DNA of 38,419 nt from contig JASLYQ010000025.1 of the NCBI GenBank assembly GCA_030739735.1, forward strand, positions 1 through 38,419. Reading direction: 5' to 3'. The notes beneath the pieces were generated by a model. The model was not told the DNA's origin. It did not search any database and saw only the letters and a list, made by a program, of their open reading frames with translations. This document shows, piece after piece, positions 403 through 2,597 of this stretch. This stretch comes from Alphaproteobacteria bacterium (lineage in GTDB: Bacteria > Pseudomonadota > Alphaproteobacteria > UBA7887). The number at the start of each line of letters is the position of its first letter. Position 1 is the stretch's first letter. Both the position numbers and the translations under genes were made by a program.

Positions 403-1680
403 TCAAGACGTCATTTCCCTCATAGTCGCGAAAGGTGCTCCCAGCAAAGCCTGCGTAGGCCGGAAGCGCACCGCCAGCGACGGCAGTCCCATCTCCCACT
501 TGTCTAGGTGGGGCAACGCAAGGGGCGCGTCAAGGCTCCAGAGCACCGGAAGACCTTCGCGCACCGGCTGCGGCAAGGCCTCGAGCACCGTATCCGCCCC
601 TTTGCGCAGGCGCCCCCAGGTGGCATCATCAAGGGGTCGTAGGGTAGCACCTTCGACAGCCTTCGCGCGGATGCGGAAGCGTCGGTCCCAGGTCTCATCA
701 ACAGGACCGGTCGGCACAATAGCGCGCGCTTCGCGGCAAATCAGGAGCCGGCCGTCGGCGAGCGGCAGCAGGCGGCAACCGCCGAGGGTGCGCGGCGTCG
801 ACTTCGACAGGGCCTCGAGCAGACGCGCTAGCCTCTCTCCACGGGGCGCATACCTGCCTCCGCCAAGGCAGACCAAAACGCGCGCGAGCACCCTTTGTGC
901 CGGCTGCCCTGCGGCCAGCAGGGTGGCAATATCGACCTCCGCCGCCCCGGCTGGGGAAAGCCGTACCGTCTCGGCCAGCAATCGGGCGATACAGTGGTCA
1001 TCGTCGTGGCGGCGCTGCGCCTGTACGGTGGCCTCGGCGCATAAGACGGCGCCCTCGCCGGCGATGGCGCGGCGGGCGCGCACGCGGGCGAACGCGGCAT
1101 CTCGATTCGAAGGGTCTTCGATCCAGCTTTGGCCGGCCGCCTGCATGGTCACACGCAGCCGGTCGCCGGGAACGCCAAGCAGCGGGCGCAATAGACGCAC
1201 GCCGTCGCGCTCGGCACACACAGGCATGGCGGCGAGGCCTGCCGGGCCACTGCTAGCTTTATGACGCAGCCATACGGTCTCGGCTTGGTCGCCGGCGTGG
1301 TGGGCGAGCAGTAGGTGCAGCAAGCCTTCCCGCCGGCAAGCTTCAAACAGCAAATGGTAGCGCGCCTCGCGCGCTGCGGCCTGGATACCACTCTTCGGCT
1401 TCCCGCCCCGCCAGACAAGCAGGCGGGCCTCCATTCCGAGCTCACAAAGACGGGCACAGGTGGCTTCCGCCTCGCTCTGAGATTCGGGGCGCAGGCCGTG
1501 GTCAACCACGAGACCCACCAGCCTGCCGCCGCGCCGCACCGCCCAGCGCTCGGCGAGTAAGGCGAGGCAAAGGCTATCAACGCCGCCAGAGACCGCTGCG
1601 GCTAGCACTGGGACACTCTCAAACGGCCCAAGGGCCTCAATTAGTGAGGCAAACTCTGCCTCGCCGAGCGCCGTGCTCAG
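403..1680 (-). CDS. tilS: tRNA(Ile)-lysidine synthase TilS, probable CTG start
   Basis: TilS adds lysine to C34 of the CAU-anticodon tRNA-Ile using ATP, which changes its decoding from Met to Ile. The N-type ATP-pyrophosphatase P-loop is visible as AVSGGVDS, followed by the N-terminal PP-loop domain (VVDHGLRPESQSEAEATCARL, HHAGDQAETVWLR). The only ordinary start codon is a GTG at 1608, five codons before the P-loop. The frame upstream is open to 1692 and encodes family-like sequence (EAEFASLIEALGPFESVPV). No ATG, GTG or TTG occurs there, only CTG at 1683 and 1680. The CTG at 1680 overlaps the cpoB stop as CTGA, imitating the usual ATGA coupling. I chose 1680; a conservative annotation would use 1608. 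The product is firm and the start is inferred. Confidence 0.9.
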   Translation of the reverse strand: MSTALGEAEFASLIEALGPFESVPVLAAAVSGGVDSLCLALLAERWAVRRGGRLVGLVVDHGLRPESQSEAEATCARLCELGMEARLLVWRGGKPKSGIQAAAREARYHLLFEACRREGLLHLLLAHHAGDQAETVWLRHKASSGPAGLAAMPVCAERDGVRLLRPLLGVPGDRLRVTMQAAGQSWIEDPSNRDAAFARVRARRAIAGEGAVLCAEATVQAQRRHDDDHCIARLLAETVRLSPAGAAEVDIATLLAAGQPAQRVLARVLVCLGGGRYAPRGERLARLLEALSKSTPRTLGGCRLLPLADGRLLICREARAIVPTGPVDETWDRRFRIRAKAVEGATLRPLDDATWGRLRKGADTVLEALPQPVREGLPVLWSLDAPLALPHLDKWEMGLPSLAVRFRPTQALLGAPFATMREMTS

Positions 1681-2597
1681 CAGCTCGCCTCAGCGCGAGC
1701 CACGGGCAGGCGATCTGTAATATGGCCCGGCGCGCTGCCGAGCTCCCGCGTCAGGCGCTCGTAGGCGGCGCAGGCCTCGCGCATCTTGTCCATGGCGGCG
1801 AAGGCCAAGCCGAGCTTGAGCAGGCTGTCCGCGGCCTTGTTACCGTCGGGAAAGCCCTTGTAGGCGCGCGCGAAAGCGACTGCCGCGCTTTGTTGATCGC
1901 CCTGCTTCATATAAATTTCGCCAATCCAAAAATGGGCGTTGCCAGCTAGCGGATCCTCGGGATAGGCATCGATGATGGCCTGGAAGCCCGCCCGCGCTGC
2001 CGCGTAGTCGGTTTGGCTAAGCAGCTGAATGGCTTGGCTGTAGACGTCGGCCACCGGCTGGTCCTCAGGCGGCTGGGCCGCGGCAACGTCAGTGCCCCCG
2101 GCCGGAATGGTGCCGAGCACGCCGTGGCCCTCATTGCTGAGGCTGCCACTGTCGATCGCCATGGTGGAGAGCGAGCCGCCGCCCGCATCTGCGACGGGGC
2201 CAGGTGTCGGCGCCAGCGTCTCGGCTAGGCGCTGCTCGATAGCGGCCAGACGCGCGTCAGTGTCGGCTACCATCAACTCGACCCGGTCGCCGACCTGACG
2301 CAGGGCGAAATGAGCCTCCTCGATCTGGCCGGTAAGCTGGCGCAGCTGGTCTTCCAGCTCGCTGAAGCGCACCTCCTGGCGCGCCACAGCCTCAGCATCA
2401 CCTTCGCCGGCGCTATGGGCGCTCTCGGGCACGCCCGCATTGGCAAGCTGGCGTGTGATCAGGCCGAGGCCACGCTCGAGCCGCTCCAGGCGATCGACCA
2501 GAGCGGCAAGGCTGAGATCCTGGGGGAAGGCGGGCGTTGCGCTAAAAAACACGACGGCGGCACACAGGGCCGCCAAGTGGACTCGCAAAGCTTTCAT
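1677..2597 (-). CDS. cpoB: Cell division coordinator CpoB (YbgF), Tol-Pal associated
   Basis: Periplasmic protein that links peptidoglycan synthesis and Tol-Pal function during constriction. The 306-residue product has a signal peptide (MKALRVHLAALCAAVVFFSATPAFPQ-type, cleaved near residue 26). An N-terminal coiled coil of roughly 100 residues (heptads around LVDRLERLERGLGLITRQL and VRFSELEDQLRQLTGQIEEA) corresponds to the trimerisation region. A Gly/Pro-rich linker follows, then C-terminal TPR repeats from about residue 185 (AIQLLSQTDYAAARAGFQAI, FWIGEIYMKQGDQQSAAVAF, LLKLGLAFAAMDKMREACAA). It lies directly after pal, as in most proteobacteria, and its stop overlaps the probable tilS start. 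Family and role are well supported. Confidence 0.95.
   Translation of the reverse strand: MKALRVHLAALCAAVVFFSATPAFPQDLSLAALVDRLERLERGLGLITRQLANAGVPESAHSAGEGDAEAVARQEVRFSELEDQLRQLTGQIEEAHFALRQVGDRVELMVADTDARLAAIEQRLAETLAPTPGPVADAGGGSLSTMAIDSGSLSNEGHGVLGTIPAGGTDVAAAQPPEDQPVADVYSQAIQLLSQTDYAAARAGFQAIIDAYPEDPLAGNAHFWIGEIYMKQGDQQSAAVAFARAYKGFPDGNKAADSLLKLGLAFAAMDKMREACAAYERLTRELGSAPGHITDRLPVARAEASC

Follow-up and report, generated by a model that had tools for sequence, protein, structure and literature searches.

In an E. coli reporter, translation from CUG reached 0.86% of the output of AUG, and among annotated bacterial starts its share is 0.024% (Hecht et al., cited in PMC11497404). A change of start codon from AUG to CUG has been inferred very rarely (2 of 61,358; PMC5622118), CTG was not enriched in initiation profiling of M. 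tuberculosis (PMC9094748), and four of 26 new N-terminal proteoforms of S. Typhimurium started at CUG (PMC11005335). For the plasmid gene RepFIB rep, a CTG start has been tested by mutation in addition to an earlier N-terminal analysis; annotators chose a GTG 14 codons downstream, low output has been proposed for the CUG start, and the accessible text does not describe rep as overlapping an upstream stop codon (PMC11983097). A second related arrangement is the four-base stop/start overlap of ATGA and GTGA gene pairs, for which restart is predicted (PMC6728339; PMC12548453). According to a review, restart can be carried out by 30S or 70S ribosomes, with cases that prefer the start nearest the stop, and RNA unfolding is a rival model (PMC12548453).

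Here we describe the cpoB-tilS junction of an alphaproteobacterium, located in a contig of 38,419 nt (the window, i.e. the whole stretch of DNA analysed). Like RepFIB rep, tilS has a candidate CTG start, a misleading GTG downstream (24 codons away here, 14 in rep) and Shine-Dalgarno-like sequence upstream (PMC11983097); unlike rep, it is a chromosomal tRNA-modification gene, apparently coupled to cpoB, and known from sequence comparison alone. It shares the four-base overlap, the place in the operon and the predicted restart with ATGA and GTGA pairs (PMC6728339; PMC12548453), but the first base of its overlap is C. A search of the accessible text of PMC6728339 found neither CTGA, GTGA, CUG nor TTG. 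In the literature searched, which left subscription papers mostly outside, no report of a CUG start of tilS was found, and none of such a start among the papers on CTG starts and CTGA overlaps.

Layout of the cpoB-tilS junction

Both genes lie on the minus strand. In a family-model scan of tilS (window 403-1689, minus strand), the product scored 129 bits against TIGR02432 (cut-off 93.6), placing it in TilS by sequence, and 142.5 bits against PF01171 (cut-off 27). It is the one TilS match in this genome, with an intact frame and no internal stop, and it is predicted to synthesize lysidine on tRNA-Ile2(CAU); a CAU tRNA (L253), labelled tRNA-Met by ARAGORN, is presumably this tRNA-Ile2. The features of the junction are as follows.

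403-1680, minus strand: tilS, read from CTG 1680 to its stop TGA (405-403), 425 residues
1573-1590, minus strand: PP-loop SGGVDS, from the sequence and aligned to the solved TilS structures 1ni5, 3a2k and 1wy5
1606-1608, minus strand: GTG, sole canonical start codon before the PP-loop, coding for residue 25; rejected as start
1609-1680, minus strand: conserved N-terminus upstream of GTG 1608, 24 codons, LSTALGEAEFASLIEALGPFESVP; from codon usage, profile, Phe10 and helix 7-15
1639-1641, minus strand: ATT where many relatives have ATG (EFxxLM), from the codon listing; rival start
1651-1653, minus strand: codon of Phe10, invariant in 35 of 35 aligned TilS
1677-2597, minus strand: cpoB (tol-pal ybgF), TIGR02795 100.1 bits (cut-off 90.1), product ending ...EASC
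1678-1680, minus strand: CTG, favoured start from sequence and junction statistics; preferred to the next CTG as the probable choice
1681-1683, minus strand: second in-frame CTG directly upstream of CTG 1680, alternative start; the data fit the two equally
1688-1691, minus strand: GAGG, Shine-Dalgarno-like, 7 nt before CTG 1680, duplex energy -5.6 kcal/mol
1690-1692, minus strand: TGA closing the tilS frame upstream, from the sequence

The tilS frame reads TGA(1692-1690) GGC GAG CTG(1683-1681) CTG(1680-1678) AGC ACG GCG CTC GGC GAG GCA GAG TTT GCC TCA CTA ATT(1641-1639) GAG GCC CTT GGG CCG TTT GAG AGT GTC CCA GTG(1608-1606) CTA GCC GCA GCG GTC, followed by SGGVDS. The original prediction had held that the conserved N-terminus appears to lack any AUG, GUG or UUG start and that a CTG forms CTGA with the cpoB stop where ATGA would be expected, and both observations proved correct. 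GTG 1608-1606, six codons before SGGVDS, is the only ATG, GTG or TTG in the tilS frame between the upstream stop and the PP-loop. cpoB ends in ...GCG AGC TGC TGA (stop TGA at 1679-1677), and its stop has TG in common with CTG 1680-1678, forming CTGA at 1680-1677 and an overlap of 4 nt if CTG 1680 is the start. At the other end of the gene, the ATG of ftsH (400-398) lies two bases past the tilS stop (405-403); ftsH may be coupled to tilS, which would be odd if tilS initiation is weak.

Coding character of the codons upstream of GTG 1608

Codon statistics were trained on 438 kb of the same genome, comprising 20 stretches of 20 kb and the window, with genes called by a simple gene caller. The 24 codons from CTG 1680 to CCA 1611 gave a codon-usage log-odds of 4.8 bits, and 871 of 2,555 in-frame gene segments scored lower, compared to a single one of 2,555 segments reaching this value in each shifted frame. 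A family profile of the 20 residues upstream of the PP-loop strand was built from 139 relatives, 57 of 196 having been left out as they fell out of ungapped register. The N-terminal segment ranked first among 50,903 stop-free six-frame segments of the window, and kept this rank when the profile was limited to 12 columns upstream of LGPFE.

TilS of the window was aligned with 34 relatives, drawn from 115 listed full-length readings. Phe10, encoded upstream of both ATT 1641 and GTG 1608, was invariant in all 35 sequences and Pro19 was nearly so. An AlphaFold model of the window TilS from this alignment (mean pLDDT 90.3, pTM 0.88) contains a helix at residues 7-15 and a first strand at 25-29, with a mean pLDDT of 91 for residues 1-10 and 95 for residues 11-20. 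GTG 1608 encodes residue 25, the first of the modelled strand. A protein begun at this codon would lack the helix, and its stretch ahead of the PP-loop would be about 14 residues shorter than that of the aligned E. coli chain 1ni5. Four close pairs, three of which share members, had no excess of third-position differences in this small sample (28 differences; 7, 12 and 9 at positions 1, 2 and 3), and the coding reading thus gets no support from that test. Codon usage, profile, invariant Phe and modelled helix nevertheless identify the 24 codons from CTG 1680 as the protein-coding N-terminus of TilS, in line with the family-like residues that the original prediction had noted over about 25 codons before the P-loop.

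cpoB-tilS junctions across Alphaproteobacteria

The 438-kb sample of the window's genome contained 265 genes, 86 close same-strand pairs and 46 junctions in the NTGA register (ATGA 21, GTGA 12, CTGA 11 and TTGA 2). At ten of the 11 CTGA junctions an ATG or GTG follows 2-26 nt past the stop, and at tilS alone the first one is found at +71. In all eight other genomes of the window's family an ATG, GTG or TTG lies no more than 44 nt before or 15 nt after the cpoB stop, and the canonical start nearest that stop is 37-54 codons before the PP-loop. The family members have the same gene order as the window and begin tilS only a few codons from where cpoB stops, but they differ in having a canonical start and, in L002, L004, L006, L010 and L011, another reading register; GTG stands at +3, directly after the stop, in L004, L006, L010 and L011, and ATG at +6 in L002. 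The comparison with close relatives put forward in the original prediction gave canonical starts near the cpoB stop in eight of eight genomes, in another register in five of them. Relatives starting at the position of GTG 1608, which that prediction had named as evidence against it, were not encountered among these eight genomes, the invariant Phe10 lies upstream of that GTG, and four relatives described below have no canonical codon between the upstream in-frame stop and the PP-loop.

A wider survey covered 326 tilS start regions obtained from searches of relatives and of the class Alphaproteobacteria, from scanning the contigs of named genomes, with the 80 best of 289 retained, and from Acetobacteraceae matches ranked by similarity to L066. 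As L066 is itself a start-less locus, this last set leans to start-less cases and the frequencies are not population estimates. Seven regions without a TilS N-terminus or motif were dropped (L370, L377, L391, L392, L393, L395 and L396), leaving 319, of which 286 were distinct; cpoB adjoined in 272 and was missing from beside tilS in 14. Junctions with an ATG, GTG or TTG in the interval that opens 45 nt ahead of the cpoB stop and closes 22 codons ahead of the PP-loop were placed in class A (230 of 272), those in which canonical starts are confined to the conserved block in class B (28, of which 25 have ATG at codon -17 or -18), and those with no canonical start up to codon -10 in class C (14, window included, of which 12 are in register 1 with CTGA). 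No ATG, GTG or TTG was thus present upstream of the conserved block at 42 of 272 distinct junctions in this biased sample. The residues upstream of the LM position were equally conserved in classes A, B and C (medians 15.2, 15.4 and 15.4; out-of-frame control -19.9; 209 of 272 loci in ungapped register).

Within class C, no canonical codon occurs in loci L289, L308, L332 and L337 over the whole stretch from the upstream in-frame stop (56-89 codons away) to the PP-loop, and CTGA is in register at each of them. Counting from the start of the PP-loop, the first canonical codon follows after 6 codons in L289 and 10 in L308, and from there the frame stays open for 397 and 398 codons up to a stop; for L332 and L337 the sequence was followed for only 91 and 95 codons beyond that point. 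Each of these genomes has one TilS match. Judged from sequence, non-canonical initiation of tilS is hard to avoid at these four loci. At three other class C loci (L012, L109 and L363) a canonical codon occurs farther back, within cpoB. In L012 (G036), canonical starts upstream of the block are confined to two ATGs, 56 and 98 nt ahead of the cpoB stop, and the overlap of tilS with cpoB may be deeper at this locus. At L068 (Acidisoma sp. L85), tilS is in register 2 and has no canonical start up to codon -2; an ATC stands just after the cpoB stop with a CTG further on, and another near-cognate start may serve.

The 272 junctions were then compared by whether another canonical start was present between 45 nt before the cpoB stop and the conserved block. 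tilS was in registers 0, 1 and 2 at 51, 146 and 75 junctions, respectively. Such a start was found at 50 of 51 junctions in register 0 and 72 of 75 in register 2 (together 122 of 126), but at 11 of the 43 register 1 junctions that combine CTG at -7 or -4 with CTGA (hereafter CTG..CTGA); it was absent in 32, window included. The other register 1 junctions gave 31 of 81 with ATG, GTG or TTG at the junction itself, 12 of 14 with CTG at -7 or -4 and no CTGA, 2 of 2 with CTGA alone and 4 of 6 without any NTG. CTG..CTGA junctions thus differ from the other registers (p = 7.5e-21) and from CTG without CTGA (p = 1e-4), and not significantly from canonical junctions (p = 0.17).

The pattern persisted when GC content and relatedness were taken into account. 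At GC >= 0.68, another canonical start was present at 9 of 40 CTG..CTGA junctions, versus 65 of 67 in other registers and 4 of 5 with CTG only; at GC >= 0.72 the values were 3/26, 24/25 and 1/2, and 3/26 was also below the canonical junctions (6/14, p = 0.044). Thinning at 65% identity (129 loci) gave 6 of 18 versus 58 of 61 and 7 of 9, and the class-wide draw alone 5 of 10 versus 61 of 63 and 9 of 9. A logistic model with interval length and GC returned p = 3.8e-8 for CTGA in register (246 loci), while an earlier form of the association weakened on thinning at 60% identity (about 70 loci; median p = 0.005, worst 0.09). Background codon rates predict a chance lack of canonical starts at 46.6 of 171 non-CTGA loci, and 9 were observed, as compared to 21.4 expected and 32 observed for 75 CTGA loci; the pressure to retain a canonical start thus seems to be gone where CTGA is present. 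At CTG..CTGA loci without an upstream canonical start, the stretch from CTGA to the block has GC contents of 0.68, 0.75 and 0.88 by codon position (142 codons), with a third-position excess at p = 8.5e-5, versus flat values of 0.67, 0.66 and 0.65 in the stop-to-start gaps of registers 0 and 2 (970 triplets, p = 0.65; both p values from rounded counts). In these sequence comparisons, the CTG..CTGA junction statistically stands in for a canonical start.

The origin of the NTG triplets was traced to the C-terminus of CpoB. In register 1, a TGA stop places its first two bases in an NTG codon of tilS, and a penultimate Cys in CpoB, present at 218 of 272 loci (120 of 146 in register 1), forces an NTG at -7 in the tilS frame. 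At 45 loci CTGA is in register and the junction has no canonical NTG; 43 of these also have CTG at -7 or -4. None of 34 CTGA loci without a second CTG lacks a canonical start, a result that is largely mechanical because the Cys codon forces some NTG at -7. Cys is the last CpoB residue at 25 of 272 loci, the window (1680-1682) among them. Selection for the C of CTGA found no support, as C precedes the cpoB TGA no more commonly in the start register (75 of 101) than in the other registers (52 of 71), and CTGA thus looks like a by-product of cpoB codon choice. A before the TGA was missing from the start register (0 of 101) and equally from the others (0 of 71; 0 of 172 in all), so that the lack of ATGA gives no sign of selection on tilS either. 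ATGA is the commonest overlap in the window's genome sample, yet it never occurs at the cpoB-tilS junctions surveyed.

Proposed initiation at the junction and its implications

On the comparative evidence from the junctions, translation of tilS probably starts on a CUG where cpoB ends, by a restart coupled to cpoB, which agrees with the re-initiation at CUG suggested in the original prediction. A ribosome halting at the cpoB UGA would sit over CUGA, with GAGG 7 nt upstream, and the same ribosome could restart on CUG 1680-1678 or perhaps on its neighbour, CUG 1683-1681. The NTG triplets of the junction would be by-products of the CpoB C-terminus, i.e. of the conserved Cys codon TGC and a following codon ending in C before TGA, and tilS would have come to use them. 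Restart by the same ribosome, the CUG that serves and a low output, which the original prediction had raised as a possible effect of the codon, are parts of this proposal that we infer. A restart on CUG would carry fMet.

The signals around the start are of an ordinary kind. The Shine-Dalgarno strength before CTG 1680 is usual for this genome, with the -5.6 kcal/mol of GAGG equalled or exceeded in 47% of 146 ATG starts, 12% of 3,000 random positions and 14% of 2,410 internal CTGs, and across the junction classes this strength was not specific to CTG..CTGA loci. Local RNA structure around the start was not special (z -1.08). No initiator tRNA was found in the G000 assembly with two patterns, nor in the 32 that were read of 39 tRNA matches. 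The E. coli initiator tRNA has three G-C pairs in its anticodon stem; the relative G001 (L275) has the anticodon-stem arms TCAGG/CCTGA, with A-U for the first of these pairs.

Other readings of the junction fit the data less well. GTG 1608 is the sole canonical start before the PP-loop and is preceded by a weak Shine-Dalgarno-like stretch (-3.1 kcal/mol), but a shorter protein starting there, with the upstream codons untranslated, appears unlikely: it would lose the invariant Phe10 and the modelled helix, begin on strand 25-29 and be shorter before the PP-loop than E. coli 1ni5, the codons upstream carry a coding signal and family sequence, and four relatives have no canonical codon at all in the region of GTG 1608. 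We give a similarly small chance to another near-cognate start, AUU 1641-1639 (ATG of EFxxLM in many relatives) or ACG 1674-1672. AUU starts are known in infC and pcnB, and the class B junctions, nearly all with ATG at codon -17 or -18, would fit a start inside the block; against this, Phe10 and other conserved residues lie upstream of ATT 1641, at loci with only the block ATG, conservation upstream of it matches that at other loci (medians 15.4 versus 15.2), and the association of start-lessness is with CTGA in register.

The canonical starts in the eight other family genomes count against the CUG reading itself, and they would agree with base 1680 having been misread or misassembled, or having changed recently in this genome alone, in a codon that is truly ATG, GTG or TTG; the window also comes from a single draft assembly of 69 contigs. 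A single-base error at one given site is improbable, however, and CTGA without a canonical start recurs at 31 other sampled loci, including 11 with none up to codon -10, which makes this explanation quite improbable. Least credible of all is a -1 frameshift at the end of cpoB producing a CpoB-TilS fusion, although the tilS frame is -1 to that of cpoB in the window, one of 12 among the 14 class C loci with this arrangement. The register varies among relatives (51, 146 and 75 of 272), no slippery heptamer was recognisable on reading AGC TGC TGA, the tilS frame is open for only 10 nt upstream of the cpoB stop, and the CpoB N-terminus reads like a signal peptide, so that a fusion would be exported.

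Initiation of tilS at the junction CUG may be less exceptional than the window suggests. The original prediction had called a CUG start rare, which overstates the case for tilS. A pair of in-frame CTGs ending in CTGA, at a junction free of canonical NTG, occurs at 43 of 272 sampled loci, of which 32 have no canonical start ahead of the conserved block, in a sample that leans to such cases. On balance, we lean towards CUG at the cpoB-tilS junction being a regular start of tilS in a sizeable part of Alphaproteobacteria, above all in Acetobacteraceae. It would arise from the Cys-X-stop end of CpoB placing NTG in the tilS frame, with restart beside the stop tolerating C as the first base; gene callers blind to CTG would misplace these starts, and a class of conserved CUG-started housekeeping genes would have been overlooked.

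If this CUG reading is true, database entries for such TilS proteins may give the wrong N-terminus. TilS lets tRNA-Ile2(CAU) read AUA and not AUG, and since it sets the decoding by this tRNA, TilS dosage may matter for decoding accuracy. Recurrent CUG-started tilS genes would provide natural replicates for testing models of restart, and the recurrence of CUG in an orthologous housekeeping gene would suggest that start-codon rules are looser beside a stop codon than in free initiation.
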